Source: Phycisphaerae bacterium (GTDB lineage: Bacteria > Planctomycetota > Phycisphaerae > UBA1845). From it: a DNA stretch of 53,781 bases. Shown here in pieces: positions 11,020 to 50,687 of the stretch (its first letter is position 1; every line of letters starts with the position of its first letter). A model generated the notes under the pieces. It saw only the letters and a program-made list of their open reading frames with translations, made no database searches and was not told the origin of the DNA. Made by a program: the position numbers and the translations under genes. The stretch is taken from contig JABWBH010000029.1 of NCBI GenBank assembly GCA_013360585.1, forward strand, positions 1 through 53,781, read 5' to 3'.

Positions 11020-12327
11020 TCAAAGCAGGTTGGCCGCGAGTTCCGCGAGGGTGCTGCGCTCACCCTTGATGAGATTGACGTGGGCGGCGACGGGCTGGGC
11101 GCGGAAGCGGTTGACGAGGTAGGTGAACCCGTTGCTGTTGGCGTCCACGTAGGGATTGTCGATCTGGAAGGGGTCGCCGGTGAGGACGACTTTTGCGTCT
11201 TGTCCGAGGCGCGTAATGACCGTCTTGACTTCCAGCGGGGTGAGGTTCTGCGCCTCGTCGATGATGACGAAGCGTTTCGCGATGTTGCGGCCTCGAATGT
11301 ACGTCAGCGGCTGAATCTCGATCAGCCCGGTGCGCAGCAACTCCGCGGCGTCCGAGCAGCCGTGGATCGGTCCGCCCGCGTCGAGGAGGAACTCGACGGT
11401 GTCCAGTACGGGCTTCATCCACGGATCGAGCTTCTGCCCGATGTCGCCGGGGAGGAACCCCAGGTCGCGTCCGACGGGCACGACGGGGCGGGCGACGAGG
11501 ATGCCGCGGTACGCCTGCCGCCGCAGACTCTGCACCATCGCCGCCGCCAGCGCGAGCACGGTTTTGCCCGTCCCGGCCTTGCCCATCAGCGTCACCAGTT
11601 GCACGCTGTCGTCGAGGAGGGCGTCCACCGCGAAGAACTGGTCCTTGTTGCGCGGTTTGATACCGCACAATCCGGCCTGCGGCGCCTGATGCAGGGCGAC
11701 CAGTTTCTTCCCCTGCGCGTCCACCCGGGCCAAGGCGCTCTTCCGCTCGTCGCCTTCCCCGCGCAACAGGACGTACTCGTTCGGGTGAACCGACAGATTC
11801 CTGGGAACGTCGATCGACCCGGCGCTCCTGAACGTCTCGATCATTGAGGGGGCGATCGCGTGCTCGTGCTGCCCGGTGTACACGTCGGCGAGCAGCACCC
11901 GGTCGGATTCATAATCCTCGGCCTTCAACCCCGCGGCGTCCGCACGAATGCGCAGGTTGATGTCCTTTGTCACAATGACCGCCGGGGTCTGCGGGTCGGC
12001 TTCGTGGATCGTCCGCGCGACGCGCAGGATTTCGAGGTCCGCGGGCAGCCGCGATCCTTCGAACAACCGCTCGGTCTCGCAGTAAACCTTTACCACGCCG
12101 CCGCCGGGCGCCGGAACGCCTTCCGACAAGGATCGCCCGTTGCGCAGCGAATCCAGCAGGCGGACGACATGGCGGGCATTGTACCCGCGGGCCGTCATCT
12201 CCTTCTTGAAGGCGTCGATCTCGGAGAGCACGGCGATCGGGATGACGACCGTGTTATCCGCGAAGTGAAAGATCGACTGCGGATCGTGAATCAGGATGTT
12301 GGCGTCGAGGATGTAGTTCTTCCGCAT
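11020..12327 (-). CDS. PIN-PhoH family ATPase
   Basis: A 435-residue protein joining a PIN ribonuclease domain (residues 1-145; acidic residues Asp8, Glu36 and Asp122 in TKDINLR) to a PhoH P-loop ATPase (about 230-435). Walker A is GKAGTGKT at 249-256 and Walker B is FVIIDEAQ at 353-360, with RPVVPVGRDLGFLPGD between them, typical of PhoH2/YlaK. Members are thought to be RNA helicase-nucleases involved in RNA turnover or toxin-antitoxin-like control; the in vivo role is unsettled. The start at MRKNYILDAN fits the PIN domain start and sits 7 bases after a strong -10 box with no Shine-Dalgarno sequence, so the mRNA is probably leaderless. No antitoxin gene is adjacent. Confidence 0.9.
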   Translation of the reverse strand: MRKNYILDANILIHDPQSIFHFADNTVVIPIAVLSEIDAFKKEMTARGYNARHVVRLLDSLRNGRSLSEGVPAPGGGVVKVYCETERLFEGSRLPADLEILRVARTIHEADPQTPAVIVTKDINLRIRADAAGLKAEDYESDRVLLADVYTGQHEHAIAPSMIETFRSAGSIDVPRNLSVHPNEYVLLRGEGDERKSALARVDAQGKKLVALHQAPQAGLCGIKPRNKDQFFAVDALLDDSVQLVTLMGKAGTGKTVLALAAAMVQSLRRQAYRGILVARPVVPVGRDLGFLPGDIGQKLDPWMKPVLDTVEFLLDAGGPIHGCSDAAELLRTGLIEIQPLTYIRGRNIAKRFVIIDEAQNLTPLEVKTVITRLGQDAKVVLTGDPFQIDNPYVDANSNGFTYLVNRFRAQPVAAHVNLIKGERSTLAELAANLL

Positions 12328-12334
12328 GTCCGCG

Positions 12335-12363
12335 AGTATACGGATCGGCGGGGCGCGGACCAA
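12335..12363 (-). promoter_or_regulatory. Promoter of the PIN-PhoH gene, leaderless layout
   Basis: On the minus strand TTGGTC and TATACT are separated by 17 bp. The -10 box ends 7 bases before the ATG, so transcription should begin at or next to the start codon. Confidence 0.6.
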
Positions 12364-12388: not shown

Positions 12389-14557
12389 TCATCCTCCGGC
12401 GCGATCCGCCTCGGCCTCCAGCAGTGCGTCCACGAGGAACTTCGTCGCCCAGTTCAACACTTCGAACGATCCGTATCCGCCGTGGATCGGCCAGGAACCG
12501 TAAAGCCCGCCGCGGATCGTCGGGTCGGCCGAGGCGATGTCGTGGCGGCGGAGCACGTATTCCGTCAACCGTTGCGCGGCGTTGCGGAACCGATCGTCAG
12601 TCTCTCGGCGATAAAGCTTCCAGAGCACGATCGCAAGCTGCATCGAGCCGGTCAGGCAGCACCAGCGGACTGCGGGACGCCAATGTTCGTCCAGCCTCCC
12701 CGGCAGGAATCCGTCCGGACGGATGCAGTCCGTCATCGCCCGCGCTGCGCGCGTGGCTGCGGCGATCGCTGCCCCGTCGTTCAGGAGGAGTCCGAACTCC
12801 AGCGCGCCGCGCGTTGCATACACCAGGGTGTGCGTCAGCGGTCTTCGCGCATCGGTCAGGCAGCACTGGTCGAACCAGCCGTTGTGCTTCTGCCGCGTCA
12901 GGGCGAAGCGTGCGTAACGCCGCGCCGCCTCGACGTGGCGATCGTCGCCGCAGAGCTGCCCGGTCTGCGCCAGGGGCCAGGCGACGCGCAGGTTGTACGT
13001 CGGCGCGGGGACGGCCGCGTGGGCGGAATGTCCGCGCACCCAGTTTCCGTCCGGCTCCTGAATCGACCCAAGCCAGTTTGCCGCGCGGATCGCCGCGTCC
13101 AGAAACACGCGATCCCCGGTCTCCTCAAAGAGACGGTTCCACCCGAGCATGACCTGTCCGGTGTTGAAGACGGCCGGACGCGGATGCCAGCGCCCCGTGC
13201 CCCCTCGCACGGCGCCCGACGGCATCTGAATCTCGATCTCCCAGCGCCCCATCCGGACGGCCCGCGCCGCGTACTCCGGGCGTCCGAGCCGCTTCGCCGC
13301 GTCGAACATCGTCGGAATGATGTACCCGGTCGTCTCGGGGTAGCTCAGGTCGAAACATCGTCGGCCGATCTTCGCCGACCGCGCCACGCCGTCATCGCTG
13401 CCGGCGTCCTGCGCGCGGCACAGCCAGTTCAGCGCTTCTTCAAGGTGCTTTCGTGGATCCACGTCGTCATGCGGCCGGGTGAAGACGCTAGCGAGCCGCG
13501 CAGGATGGGCGAAATCAAGAAACCGCCGGACGCGAGGCGCGATCACCGTCCGGCCCGGAATCGGCGCGCGGCGGAGGCGCCTGAGCGTTTTCGAGGCCCA
13601 CCGCTTTCCGCCGGACCTGACGAACCCGGCCATCACCTTCGGTGTCATCCGCCCGCGCGACGCTCGTTCGTATCCGAACGCGTGCAGGAAGCGCCCGGCG
13701 GCGGTCTCGATCATGCGCAACGGTTCCGGCGCCAGCTCCCCGCGCCACTTCTCGAGCTGGTCCTTCGCCGGGGGACGAGAGAGGTGCCGGTGAATCGGTT
13801 TTTCCTGCGGCGCGAGCAACGCTTCGGCCTGCCGGTGATACTCCAGCATCGCGGGATCAAAGGATTCTCCGAGGAAGTCGCAGATCCGCGTCAGCACCCG
13901 CGGCGGATCGGACACGAGGTCTTCGTACCGGATCCGCATCGAGCGCCGCGAGGTCATCCGCGAAAGCCCGCGTTCGATCGCCGCCACCGTCGCCCGCCAG
14001 GTGATCGCCGCCGACAGCAGATCCCGCTGGAATTCCGTCCGCACCAGCGAAAGCGCCACGTCCCGGGGGTCGCGCACCAGGTGAATGAAAAGCGCGTCAG
14101 GGAAAAGGCGCGCCAGCGTCGTTGTGTGCGGGCCGTGCGTCGTCGTCTTGTCCCCCCACCGCGCCTTGCCCTGCTGAGCGGCGTAGGCCTCGAAGCACGC
14201 CCGGCACAGATCCGCCGCTGTCGGGGCGGGAAGCGCGTCCAGCCGTCGGGCGAGATCGTCGCGCGGTACGCCGAACTCGATGACGCGCTCATGCTCCAGC
14301 AACCTTTCGATCGCGCTGCGCCGCCGTGAAACATCCGTCAGCGGCGCGTCGCCGAACTCCTCGTGCAGTTCGATGATGAAGTGCGACGCGCGGGGGACGG
14401 CGATGGCCCGGTGGCAGGTAAGCATCGAGCGCAGCAGCGTCGTCCCCGAGCGACCGCAGGCGAGAATGAAAAACGGCGGCCCGCCGACCGCTTGGGCGAC
14501 GCCGGACGGCTGGGTCATCGGCGCACGATCGGTACGAGCAGGTGTCGCGTTGTGCAT
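12389..14557 (-). CDS. Sulfotransferase fused to alpha/alpha toroid domain
   Basis: A 722-residue two-domain protein. Residues about 27-300 are a PAPS-dependent sulfotransferase: the 5'-phosphosulfate loop is CGRSGTTL at 34-41, and the 3'-phosphate segment is the later VRDPRDVALSL. Residues about 368-722 form an (alpha/alpha) repeat domain of the kind found in polysaccharide lyases, glycoside hydrolases and glucuronyl C5-epimerases (TTGYIIPTMFDAAKRLG, NTGQVMLGWNRLFEETGD, ILRPDGFLPG-like turn, GSWPIHGGYGSFEVLNWA near the end). This combination suggests modification and sulfation of a glycan in one chain, but the second domain's activity cannot be read from motifs. No signal peptide is seen, so it should act in the cytoplasm. 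APS kinase at 50067 could supply PAPS. Confidence 0.82.
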   Translation of the reverse strand: MHNATPARTDRAPMTQPSGVAQAVGGPPFFILACGRSGTTLLRSMLTCHRAIAVPRASHFIIELHEEFGDAPLTDVSRRRSAIERLLEHERVIEFGVPRDDLARRLDALPAPTAADLCRACFEAYAAQQGKARWGDKTTTHGPHTTTLARLFPDALFIHLVRDPRDVALSLVRTEFQRDLLSAAITWRATVAAIERGLSRMTSRRSMRIRYEDLVSDPPRVLTRICDFLGESFDPAMLEYHRQAEALLAPQEKPIHRHLSRPPAKDQLEKWRGELAPEPLRMIETAAGRFLHAFGYERASRGRMTPKVMAGFVRSGGKRWASKTLRRLRRAPIPGRTVIAPRVRRFLDFAHPARLASVFTRPHDDVDPRKHLEEALNWLCRAQDAGSDDGVARSAKIGRRCFDLSYPETTGYIIPTMFDAAKRLGRPEYAARAVRMGRWEIEIQMPSGAVRGGTGRWHPRPAVFNTGQVMLGWNRLFEETGDRVFLDAAIRAANWLGSIQEPDGNWVRGHSAHAAVPAPTYNLRVAWPLAQTGQLCGDDRHVEAARRYARFALTRQKHNGWFDQCCLTDARRPLTHTLVYATRGALEFGLLLNDGAAIAAATRAARAMTDCIRPDGFLPGRLDEHWRPAVRWCCLTGSMQLAIVLWKLYRRETDDRFRNAAQRLTEYVLRRHDIASADPTIRGGLYGSWPIHGGYGSFEVLNWATKFLVDALLEAEADRAGG

Positions 14558-37186: not shown

Positions 37187-38716
37187 TTACACGCCACTGC
37201 TGGGAGGACAGAGGAGGATCGCGTCCGCGGTCGTCGGAGGCGGCGACGCCTCGGCGGCAGGCGGAGCAAAGGAGAGGATCGGCGCAAGATCGGGACGCTG
37301 ATGGCGCCACATGCCGACCACCGTCTCGATGTCGGGGTTCGGATCGCCTTCCTGAAGGCGGGTCCACGCATCGAACCGTCGCAGCACACCGACCAGCACC
37401 AGGTCATGATCCGCCGGGCGCCCTCCGTGATCCGGCGCCTTCGCGATCGACAACGCCAGCCGCGCCGCCGAAAGTGGCGACAGATCCGCCAGCCGCAGAA
37501 TGCATGTCCGCGCCACCGGCCAGGTGAACGCCTCGCACGATCGCGACCGCTTCCACAACCCCGACAGCGACGACCAGTGCCGCTCGATCTCCTCCAGCGA
37601 CCCCGCGCCCAGCGTCGTTATCAGCCGCTGTTGCAGGTTTTGCGTCAGCCGCGCATGAATGTCGCGCTCGATCCCCCCCGCCGGCGCCAGGTCCACGAAT
37701 TCCGCCGACATCGCCAGCAACCGCGGAACGTCCGCCTGCTCCACCTCATCCGCCGCAAGGTACCACTTCCCGACCTGATCGAGGCTTCGCAGCGCCGGAT
37801 TCGAAAACGCCAGCGACGTGCGCCTTGAAAGTTCGCCGATCCGGTCCCGGCGCCACTGCCGCTCGACGAAGTCCAGCCACTCGCTGCGCACCGGCGCGGT
37901 TTCGACGCTCCGCGCCGCGTCAATGAACGTCGTCTCCTGCCCCTCGCACAATTCCCGCGACCGCGCGTCATCCCCCGACACCACGACGAGATGATGCGCG
38001 CGGGTGTTTGAATACCGCAGTCCCGCCGACATCGACATCGTCAAGCGCAGCGGCCCCGGCAGCGCCATCCAGAGCAACTCCGCCTCCTCGGTGGGCAGCC
38101 CCGCCACCTGAAGTACGACGGCCTTGCGCTGCATGAGCAGATGCGCCACGTGACGCCGGACCGCGATCCCCGCCGCGCCTCCCGGAAACGCCCCGTCTTC
38201 TCCGACGCACATGCCGTCGCAGGTCAGCGCCGCGGGAGGCAGCGGATCCTTCGGTTTGAGTTGCGGCTCGGTCAGGTCGCGGTCCATCGCTGCGCGCAGC
38301 ACCGCAAAAGGATTGTATCCGAAACGTTCGTAATCCTCGCGCTCGAGCACCAGGTTGTACGTGTACACGCGCTGTCCCCGGCGTCCGGTGTGCTCCGCGC
38401 CCGCGGTTCGCGTGTACGCCACGCACATCCGCCCCGTCGCAAGCGGGTACGCCGCCAACCCGATCGCGTCCGGCGCGGGGCTGCAAAGCGCCTCGTGCGA
38501 GGGAGAAAACCGCGTGATGATCTGCTTCTCCTCGACCCGCAGCGACCGCGACGACGCAACGATCCGGTACCCCTCGCCCGTGGGCGTCCGGATCGACGTG
38601 AAGATCGCCGGGTGCGCGACGATCTCCGCCTTCGCGGGGGATGAGGCGCGCGCCACACACGCCGACCCGCCCCCAAGACGCGGATCGTCCGTTATGACAG
38701 GTGCGCCAGAACCCAC
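37187..38716 (-). CDS. GAP1-like GTPase-associated protein
   Basis: A 509-residue soluble protein with no transmembrane segment. The N-terminal region (about 35-165) reads IFTSIRTPTGEGYRIVASS, then SLRVEEKQIITRFSPSHE, then RRGQRVYTYNLVL. This resembles the N-terminal domain of GAP1 proteins, which occur next to double-GTPases in putative conflict systems. The middle (about 180-290) and helical C-terminus show no motif I can name. It ends in a short hydrophobic tail after a Pro-rich stretch. The chosen GTG overlaps the end of the GTPase gene by 25 bases, so translation is probably coupled; a GTG 60 bases later is an alternative. The family call rests on pattern memory and needs a profile search. 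Confidence 0.55.
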   Translation of the reverse strand: MGSGAPVITDDPRLGGGSACVARASSPAKAEIVAHPAIFTSIRTPTGEGYRIVASSRSLRVEEKQIITRFSPSHEALCSPAPDAIGLAAYPLATGRMCVAYTRTAGAEHTGRRGQRVYTYNLVLEREDYERFGYNPFAVLRAAMDRDLTEPQLKPKDPLPPAALTCDGMCVGEDGAFPGGAAGIAVRRHVAHLLMQRKAVVLQVAGLPTEEAELLWMALPGPLRLTMSMSAGLRYSNTRAHHLVVVSGDDARSRELCEGQETTFIDAARSVETAPVRSEWLDFVERQWRRDRIGELSRRTSLAFSNPALRSLDQVGKWYLAADEVEQADVPRLLAMSAEFVDLAPAGGIERDIHARLTQNLQQRLITTLGAGSLEEIERHWSSLSGLWKRSRSCEAFTWPVARTCILRLADLSPLSAARLALSIAKAPDHGGRPADHDLVLVGVLRRFDAWTRLQEGDPNPDIETVVGMWRHQRPDLAPILSFAPPAAEASPPPTTADAILLCPPSSGV

Positions 38717-39576
38717 TCAAACGGCTCCAGGATGCCCCGCGGCGAGCAGTGCAGCGGGTAGGGGATAACGTTGCCCTCCGCGTCGTGCGCATACCCCAGC
38801 GACCCCACGACGCTCGCCGCGAAAAAGTCATACTTCTCGAACCGGCTCTCGCAGAGGTTCCACGTCCGGTTCAGGTTCGTCTTCGCAAAAATCCGCGGAT
38901 CGTCGAAGCACTCGGGGCAGTAATCCCCCTTGCACAGCACGATCGCCACCGGCGTGTCGATCTTCTCCCCGCGCTTTTTCGCGAAGATGCCGTCCAGATA
39001 CGACAGCAGCTTCAACGCGAAAAAGTCCGGCTGCGGAGATCCCGCCGCCGCCACCCCCGCGTCCACCAGTAGCAGCGACCCCGCGCTTTTCTCCAGCAGG
39101 CTGCGGATCACGGTGTACGTCTTCGGCGACGACACCTCCGCCGCCAGCGCCTCGCCGGCCATGTCGGGCATGACCAGATCGTAGATCATGTCGCCGTGTC
39201 GGTGATGCGCCACCTGATAGTACGCCCAGTGCCACTGATCGACTTCCGTCGGGGTCTTCGGAGGGAATTGTCGCGTCCCGAGGTGGCTGACTACGTTGTG
39301 CTGAAGGTTGACCGAGTACGCGCCCTTCGGGACCGCCTCGAAATCCCCGGCGCGCTTGCTGAGCATGTCCAGCAGCGTCCCGAGGTACACCGTCTTGCCC
39401 GTGTTGCTCTCGCCGATGACGCTGACGATGCACGGGTCGCGGTCCTGCGCCGCGGCCTCGTGTATCAGCGCCATCGGCGCGTAGCACCGCGAGCAGACCA
39501 GCGCGTCCGGCTTGTTCTCCGCCTCGCAGATCAGGCACGGCGTCGACGCCGTCGTCATCATCGTCGTCGTCAGCAT
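38692..39576 (-). CDS. Zinc-ribbon P-loop GTPase, DO-GTPase2-like
   Basis: A 294-residue protein. Residues 14-31 form a zinc ribbon (CLIC and CSRC). The P-loop is GESNTGKT at 55-62, followed by VYLGTLLDML. The switch-II-like DxxG is DMAG at 138-141 in MPDMAGEAL, and the base-recognition strand is AIVLCKGDYC (211-220), with KGD in the place of the usual NKxD/TKxD. This order fits the TRAFAC-type GTPases named DO-GTPase2 that accompany GAP1 proteins. The likely role is a nucleotide-driven switch. No membrane anchor is seen. It lies between the FGE-fold protein gene and the GAP1-like gene in one minus-strand block. Confidence 0.7.
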   Translation of the reverse strand: MLTTTMMTTASTPCLICEAENKPDALVCSRCYAPMALIHEAAAQDRDPCIVSVIGESNTGKTVYLGTLLDMLSKRAGDFEAVPKGAYSVNLQHNVVSHLGTRQFPPKTPTEVDQWHWAYYQVAHHRHGDMIYDLVMPDMAGEALAAEVSSPKTYTVIRSLLEKSAGSLLLVDAGVAAAGSPQPDFFALKLLSYLDGIFAKKRGEKIDTPVAIVLCKGDYCPECFDDPRIFAKTNLNRTWNLCESRFEKYDFFAASVVGSLGYAHDAEGNVIPYPLHCSPRGILEPFEWVLAHLS

Positions 39577-49297: not shown

Positions 49298-49825
49298 TTG
49301 TCGGAGTTTCACGCCAACCTCTGGGCGCCTTGGCGGATGCAGTACATCCGGTCCCTCGCCGAGGACACCCGCGACGACGTCTGCTTCCTCTGCCGTTACG
49401 CCGCGGATCCGGCATCGGATCGCGCGCATCACGTCCTGTGGCGCACCCCCGCCTGCCTCGTCGTGATGAACCGCTTCCCCTACACCAACGGCCACCTGAT
49501 GATCGCGCCCCGCCGACACGTCGGCGAGTTCGAGGAACTGGACGACCCGACTCTGTGCGACCTGATTCGATCGACGCGCGACGCCGTCCGAGTCCTCCGC
49601 GCCGTCGTCCGGGCTCAGGGGTTCAACGTCGGGTTCAATCTCGGCGTCTGCGCCGGCGCGGGGCTTCCGGGGCACGTCCACGCCCACGTCGTCCCGCGCT
49701 GGGCGGGAGACACGAATTACATGGCGGTTCTCGGCCAGGTCCGCGTCATCCCCGACGCCCTCGACGCGCTTTATGAAGAATTGCGGACCGAAGCCCACCG
49801 CCAGGGATACGTCCCAGACAAGTGA
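49298..49825 (+). CDS. HIT family hydrolase/phosphorylase
   Basis: A 175-residue histidine-triad protein with HVHAHVVPRW, and CFLC upstream, which together with a later His forms the zinc site of the Ap4A phosphorylase-like HIT subgroup. FANLWAPWRMQYI-like N-terminal residues (HANLWAPWRMQYIR) and MNRFPYTNGHLMIAP are typical of this group. It probably hydrolyses or phosphorolyses diadenosine polyphosphates or AMP conjugates. The TTG start has GGGAG 8 bases before it. An alternative GTG at 49259 lies where a TAGAAT -10 box (49244-49249) would give a leaderless message. Confidence 0.88.
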   Translation: MSEFHANLWAPWRMQYIRSLAEDTRDDVCFLCRYAADPASDRAHHVLWRTPACLVVMNRFPYTNGHLMIAPRRHVGEFEELDDPTLCDLIRSTRDAVRVLRAVVRAQGFNVGFNLGVCAGAGLPGHVHAHVVPRWAGDTNYMAVLGQVRVIPDALDALYEELRTEAHRQGYVPDK

Positions 49826-50066
49826 AAGCACCGAACAACCCCGGTTTTCACCCGTCGCAGACGCGATCCGCGGCGCTTTATCGGGCTTGTCCGGGCGAGA
49901 GGGGCGACGGTCGCTTGTGATGCCCTGTCCCTTTCCTTATATTCTCCTCCTTCCTGGAGCGGCGCACAGCAGAACGTCAGGGCGTTCATCCTCGATCCGG
50001 CGCAAGGGGCGCGGAGCAGGCGGAGGCGGCACGCCGCGGGGCATCATCGAAAACGGAGCGAAATCA

Positions 50067-50687
50067 GTGTCAACCGTCAAGGCAACGAACATCACCTGGC
50101 ATGAGGGTCACGTCAGCCGCGCCGAGCGCGAAGCGCTGCTCAAGCAGAAGGGCGTCCTGCTCTGGTTCACCGGGCTGAGCGGATCCGGCAAGAGCACCAT
50201 CGCGTACACCCTTGAACATGCCCTCGTGCAGCGCGGGCGACTCGCCTACGTCCTGGACGGAGACAACATCCGCCACGGCCTGAACAAGAACCTCGGCTTC
50301 TCCGCCGAGGACCGGGCGGAGAACATCCGCCGCATCGGCGAAGTGGGCAAGCTCTTCGTCGACGCGGGCGTCATCACGATGACGTCATTCATCAGCCCCT
50401 ACCGGTCGGACCGCGACGCGGCGCGCAAGACCGTCGGCGAGGGCAATTTCTTCGAGATCTTCTGCGACACCCCGATCGAAGTCTGCGAGCAGCGCGACCC
50501 GAAGGGCCTGTACAAAAAGGCTCGCGCCGGCGAGATCAAGGGCTTCACCGGCATCGACGACCCTTACGAAGCGCCGCTGAACCCGGAACTCGTGATCGAC
50601 AACTCGAAGTGTACGCCGCAGGAGGCCGCCGTCCGCCTCATCGAACTGCTCGAAAAACACGGAAAAATCTCCGGCCTGAAGGATTGA
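50067..50687 (+). CDS. cysC: Adenylylsulfate kinase
   Basis: A 206-residue APS kinase that phosphorylates adenosine 5'-phosphosulfate to PAPS. The P-loop is GLSGSGKS at 36-43, with LDGDNIRHGLNKNLGFS, then ENIRRIGEVGKLFVDAGVI, FISPYRSDRDAAR, CDTPIEVCEQRDPKGLYKKA and the final substrate-binding IDDPYEAPLNPEL. The start is the GTG with GGAG about 9 bases upstream; the frame runs further upstream but without family resemblance. No cysD, cysN or cysH gene is adjacent, so it may supply PAPS for sulfation instead of cysteine synthesis. A gap of 29 bases separates it from the next gene. Confidence 0.95.
   Translation: MSTVKATNITWHEGHVSRAEREALLKQKGVLLWFTGLSGSGKSTIAYTLEHALVQRGRLAYVLDGDNIRHGLNKNLGFSAEDRAENIRRIGEVGKLFVDAGVITMTSFISPYRSDRDAARKTVGEGNFFEIFCDTPIEVCEQRDPKGLYKKARAGEIKGFTGIDDPYEAPLNPELVIDNSKCTPQEAAVRLIELLEKHGKISGLKD

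Follow-up and report, generated by a model that had tools for sequence, protein, structure and literature searches.

A sulfotransferase fused to an alpha/alpha toroid of an unnamed family in uncultured planctomycetes

What might a bacterial protein do that carries a sulfotransferase in its N-terminal half and, in its C-terminal half, a ring of helices resembling sugar-active enzymes? The question is raised by a gene from a Phycisphaerae bacterium (contig JABWBH010000029.1), located in the window analysed here, a stretch of DNA of 53,781 nucleotides. A sequence-only reading of this window had described a PAPS sulfotransferase joined to a domain akin to polysaccharide-active toroids, including glucuronyl C5-epimerases, and had considered it conceivable that one chain both epimerises and sulfates a bacterial glycan.

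The fused gene (12389..14557, minus strand) encodes 722 amino acids, and its codon-position GC follows the pattern of a gene. The same in-frame fusion is complete and 90% identical in Phycisphaerae Bin_14R (L033), and it is 95% identical in Planctomycetota BroJett003 (L034), where it ends at the contig end. Values of dN/dS are below 0.25 in both halves (0.14-0.17 for the sulfotransferase and 0.14-0.22 for the toroid), indicating purifying selection on both domains. Constraint is weaker on the basic linker that joins them (dN/dS 0.26-0.27; residues 301-367, 13457..13657, minus strand) than on either domain; alignment with standalone proteins places the former N-terminal region of a standalone toroid within this linker. 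The sulfotransferase-toroid fusion is confirmed as real, and it is narrow in spread, being confined to one genus of uncultured planctomycetes. Its distribution, which the sequence-only reading had proposed to examine, was followed through 114 order-level and 392 phylum-level genomes, and no further fusion of this kind was found. Of the four genomes that represent the genus in the order-level search, three have the toroid (G055 and G057 correspond to L034 and L033, respectively) and the fourth, G056, does not. No second toroid was found in the bacterium's own genome.

By family and motifs, the N-terminal half is assigned to the PAPS sulfotransferases. The domain (residues 28-235; 13853..14476, minus strand) covers the full PF13469 (Sulfotransfer_3) profile, with E 2.4e-37 to 3.4e-38 and 129.8 bits against a curated cut-off of 27, and PF00685 matches the same half with E 1.5e-11. 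Two stretches align with donor-binding motifs of solved sulfotransferases, namely the predicted 5'-phosphosulfate loop GRSGTT (residues 35-40; 14438..14455) and the predicted 3'-phosphate binding motif RDPRDVALS (residues 162-170; 14048..14074), both on the minus strand. The closest PDB sequences are CurM and another polyketide-synthase sulfotransferase, followed by tyrosylprotein sulfotransferases. NoeE/NodH-type and CurM-type bacterial sulfotransferases belong to the same superfamily, but the NoeE model scores far under its curated cut-off on this domain. An AF2 model of the full-length protein (pTM 0.46) is too poor to read the domain packing or the sulfotransferase fold, because its alignment holds only three near-identical sequences. 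The genome has three Sulfotransfer_3 genes in total. As the earlier reading had stated, the window also carries cysC, whose product, an APS kinase, is a source of PAPS (about 49773..50687, plus strand; PF01583, E 9.7e-73); this is the only APS kinase gene found in the genome.

The C-terminal half, residues 368-722 (12392..13456, minus strand), is predicted to be an (alpha/alpha)6 toroid, a closed ring of helical hairpins. The AF2 model of residues 340-722 (pLDDT 66, pTM 0.74), built from the protein and its two near-identical orthologues, forms a ring of helix pairs with about twelve main helices and has low-confidence loops, one of them just before the PETTGY motif described below. Fold comparison, which had been suggested as a check, gives Z scores of 21-26 to (alpha/alpha)6 enzymes. 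The best solved match is 3wiw, a heparin-specific unsaturated glucuronyl hydrolase (Z 26.2 over 297 residues, 3.4 A), alongside 1vd5, another unsaturated glucuronyl hydrolase (Z 25.6), and 3vw5, a cellobiose 2-epimerase (Z 25.4). Solved glucuronyl C5-epimerases are absent among the best 50 fold matches, an absence that does not amount to exclusion. The claimed resemblance to sugar-active toroids is therefore upheld at the level of fold, and a common fold with such enzymes is no proof of function.

Profile scores give the toroid no name, and no Pfam or NCBIfam model designates its family. Weak Pfam matches in the C-terminal half are to GH127, SQHop_cyclase_C and pectate lyase. GH127 reaches 26.1-26.6 bits for the isolated domain against a cut-off of 24.9, and 23.7 bits for the whole protein, whereas GH88 reaches 12 bits against a cut-off of 26.6. 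C5-epim_C scores 11.3 bits in the window protein against a cut-off of 23.3 (E 0.24); it falls below E 0.01 in 7 of 25 family members (best 1.9e-6), and the matches to Glce in the PDB are generic repeat matches. The beta-hairpin and beta-sandwich domains of Glce were not found in the 722 residues, which comprise only sulfotransferase, linker and toroid. The squalene-cyclase C-terminal domain scores under its cut-off, and a squalene cyclase identity was rejected because the matches lie at the repeat level only.

Standalone relatives of the toroid, about 400 amino acids long, cytosolic in appearance and 30-49% identical to it, are spread through the phylum. Two further relatives (L074 and L075) lie on haloarchaeal plasmids and are 37% and 32% identical to the window toroid; no relative was found in viral contigs or phages. 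The haloarchaeal proteins are annotated as 'prenyltransferase/squalene oxidase repeat-containing protein', a name that is probably misleading.

An alignment of 42 members, haloarchaeal toroids included, reveals a strongly conserved set of residues. Its main elements, all on the minus strand, are PETTGY (residues 407-412; 13322..13339), with P, G and Y in 42 of 42 members and E, T and T in 40-41; FNTGQ (residues 464-468; 13154..13168), conserved in 39-42 of the 42; and H576 (12830..12832) and C634 (12656..12658), the sole invariant histidine and cysteine of the family (42/42 each). The invariant or near-invariant positions are W378, P407, E408, T409, T410, G411, Y412, F464, N465, T466, G467 and Q468 in the first part; Y521, W527, H576, T577, Y580, E587 and C634 in the middle; and G637, Q640, S688, P690, Y695, N702, W703, K706 and D710 in the last. 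The fused copy retains every one of them, including both motifs, H576-T577, Y580, C634 and K706, and differs at one further position, with F402 in place of the Trp of most members. This degree of conservation argues that the toroid is no plain structural repeat. The sequence-only reading had named a toroid without a conserved pocket, or one matching a plain repeat family, as findings that would overturn it; the residue set kept in the 42 members and in the fused copy points to neither.

The putative active-site residues do not appear to match those of any known toroid enzyme. GH88/GH105 enzymes (3wiw, 1vd5) share the (alpha/alpha)6 toroid, at Z about 26 over 290-300 residues, but they are only about 16% identical to the window toroid, and Pfam GH88 is far under its cut-off. 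Their catalytic Asp pair is not suggested by the conserved acids of the family, of which only E408, E587 and D710 are near-invariant, with D384, D482 and D503 conserved to a lower degree. GH127 enzymes have several conserved Cys that bind zinc, in contrast to the single conserved Cys, C634, of this family. N-acylglucosamine/cellobiose 2-epimerases (AGE) use three catalytic histidines (H184, H243 and H374 in 3vw5), whereas H576 is the only His conserved at 80% or more here. The catalytic set of human Glce comprises E499, Y500, N510, Y560 and Y578; the toroid family has invariant Tyr, Glu and Asn of its own.

Maximum-likelihood phylogeny pairs the fused toroid with L123, a standalone toroid of a different planctomycete family (support 97/99), and places the two within a clade of 16 (99/99). 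A standalone clade of eight from the bacterium's own taxonomic family is set apart (100/100). This placement indicates that the fused toroid is not simply the vertically inherited copy of its own taxonomic family.

Across its members, the toroid family tracks with cell-surface glycan gene clusters. In the standalone clade of the bacterium's own family, an ABC2 (Wzm-like) gene is followed by an ABC ATPase (Wzt-like) and a GT4, then by the toroid, a carbamoyltransferase and a GT2. Another group has a Zn-dehydrogenase/MocA fusion before the toroid and, after it, a formyltransferase, heparinase II/III and GT4, in that order. Toroids that share a clade with the fused copy have among their neighbours an aminoglycoside-3-N-acetyltransferase-like protein (L152, and by sequence likeness L158), a FemAB/GNAT acyltransferase (L157), a GNAT acetyltransferase (L047), a formyltransferase (L155), and an asparagine synthase with an AMP-ligase (L159). 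By sequence likeness, the toroid is also fused to a C-terminal formyltransferase-like domain at L135 and to an N-terminal Trm112/methyltransferase-like domain at L133. Altogether, a small-group transferase adjoins the toroid or shares its chain at at least 20 loci, counted by cluster among immediate neighbours and fusions. Several loci have a Wzm/Wzt transporter in the cluster, with a sub-threshold Wzt_C match in Wzt. The toroid of Halobellus limi is the first gene after an annotated sulfatase and that of Haladaptatus the second; aglF or glycosyltransferases are in the vicinity. With a GT4 profile whose source genes do not adjoin toroids, GT4 was detected at 17 of 33 toroid loci, as against 2 of 20 control regions taken from the same genomes (Fisher p 0.003); the test is less independent than this p value suggests because loci within families share synteny. 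Long open frames upstream of the toroid at L125-L127, L129 and L136 gave the semblance of further fusions; judged from composition and start sites, they are apparently neighbouring genes read in another frame.

The fused gene itself sits between DinB and PhoH genes, outside any glycan cluster. The PhoH/PIN gene (11020..12363, minus strand) follows it after a 25 bp gap, an order maintained in L033 and L034. The GT4 profile found no GT4 gene in the window. The genome encodes two UDP-sugar dehydrogenases, and on another contig (L112; G000:C70:12000-31999) it has a candidate locus for a sulfated glycan, a polysaccharide export cluster in which a second Sulfotransfer_3 gene is accompanied by three GT4 genes, a sulfatase gene and a gene for a flippase-like protein. 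In other genomes, sulfotransferase genes are not linked to the toroid. Two genomes (L104 and L105, in G087 and G088) have Sulfotransfer_3 in a conserved glycan-like cluster with GT4, separate from their toroid.

On balance, the evidence favours a cytosolic bifunctional enzyme that decorates a cell-surface glycan. The protein probably sulfates such a glycan, since the toroid is elsewhere a separate protein encoded among cell-surface sugar genes. The N-terminal domain would transfer sulfate from PAPS, for which it has the donor motifs, to a presumed glycan acceptor, and the toroid, to judge from its fold, conserved residues and the genomic association of its family, would act as a sugar-binding enzyme on the same glycan precursor before export. 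A cytosolic site of action is suggested because hydropathy gives no export-type hydrophobic N-terminal segment and PAPS is cytosolic. The fusion would thus unite on one chain two steps that elsewhere appear to be shared between the same toroid and carbamoyl-, formyl-, acetyl- or methyltransferases, a list of partners suggesting that the toroid operates alongside whatever small-group transferase the glycan is decorated by. Three observations count against this interpretation: the fused gene lies outside a glycan cluster, sulfotransferases elsewhere are unlinked to the toroid, and about half of the toroid loci have no GT4 gene.

For the chemistry of the toroid, the leading candidate, although a tentative one, is C5-epimerisation of a uronate or a related step of lyase type; hydrolytic trimming, deacylation and chain-end recognition are each less likely. 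A GlcA-type C5-epimerase would allow one chain to epimerise and sulfate, as in heparan or dermatan synthesis. The top fold match to a heparin-type unsaturated glucuronyl hydrolase is consistent with this, as are the conserved Tyr, His, Asn, Gln and Arg with few acids, which would suit proton abstraction at C5. Parallels may exist in other systems. The archaeal C5-epimerase Agl32 of Halobacterium salinarum is likewise a single helical domain with a fold near cellobiose 2-epimerase (PMC13308652), standing alone in a glycosylation cluster that, with Agl30 and Agl31, also sulfates (PMC11980604). The latter two are sulfatase-like proteins outside the PAPS sulfotransferase family, unlike the window sulfotransferase, and are proven sulfotransferases; by analogy, the sulfatase-like genes adjoining the haloarchaeal toroids may be of a type whose products were found to add sulfate to IdoA in Halobacterium (PMC11980604). 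Human DSEL (DS-epimerase 2) similarly has, on one chain, a uronate epimerase part that includes a toroid together with a sulfotransferase-like domain, but in the reverse order, at a much larger size and with further domains in the epimerase; its sulfotransferase activity was not detected (PMC9957132). Against epimerisation stand the C5-epim_C score of the window protein and the many toroid loci where formyl- or carbamoyltransferases occur but no step involving a uronate is apparent. The earlier proposal of one chain epimerising and sulfating thus divides: the fusion and the surface-glycan link of the family hold, and the identification as a glucuronyl C5-epimerase is not supported, as no C5-epimerase family passes its threshold, the conserved residues do not appear to correspond to those of any known epimerase, and the genes that accompany the toroid family encode mostly carbamoyl-, formyl- and acetyltransferases instead of sulfation enzymes.

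Somewhat less plausible, though in the same low range, is a preparatory role in which the toroid, as a hydrolase, lyase or deacylase, readies the sugar for the new group that the partner transferase then adds. NDST (N-deacetylase/N-sulfotransferase), which acts in heparan synthesis, likewise fuses a sulfotransferase to a glycan-preparing enzyme; its partner domain is a deacetylase, so far as is known of another fold. Removal of an N-acyl group by the invariant C634 and H576 would be one such preparation. Every partner of the family attaches a small group (carbamoyl, formyl, acetyl, methyl or sulfate), and the isolated domain just exceeds the GH127 gathering score, but the two-carboxylate pattern of glycosidases appears to be absent, and deacylases are not known to adopt a toroid fold. 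Less likely again is a non-catalytic domain that binds the glycan or recognises its chain end and brings the sulfotransferase to its acceptor. Pairing with different transferases and the presence of Wzm/Wzt in the same cluster would fit such a role, whereas more than 40 near-invariant positions, some of them occupied by His, Cys, Glu, Tyr and Lys that could be reactive, exceed the usual needs of binding, and the toroid also occurs free-standing. An accidental fusion or assembly artefact devoid of joint function, as restriction to one genus and the lack of an adjoining glycan cluster might suggest, is very improbable given three separate intact assemblies, purifying selection on both halves and retained motifs.

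A sulfotransferase joined to a glycan-acting domain is of a kind already known; what is new is a toroid family that lacks a profile of its own. Returning to the preferred bifunctional enzyme, its most far-reaching form would be that this undescribed family of planctomycetes and haloarchaea epimerises glycan uronates at C5, or carries out an equivalent new reaction on sugars, at a site unlike those of known toroid enzymes, and is fused here to the sulfotransferase acting next, as a bacterial one-chain analogue of the heparan and dermatan steps; this remains a doubtful proposition. If the toroid were an epimerase, a single compact cytosolic enzyme would both epimerise and sulfate glycans in bacteria; it would be useful in the production of heparin-like polymers, and the coupling found in animals would have arisen a second time. 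If it is not, the toroid still belongs to a conserved unnamed enzyme family that tracks surface-glycan decoration in bacteria and archaea. Elsewhere in the window, adjacent genes at 37187-39576 (minus strand) encode GAP1-N2 and double-GTPase (DO-GTPase1/2) domains, forming a GTPase-associated module.
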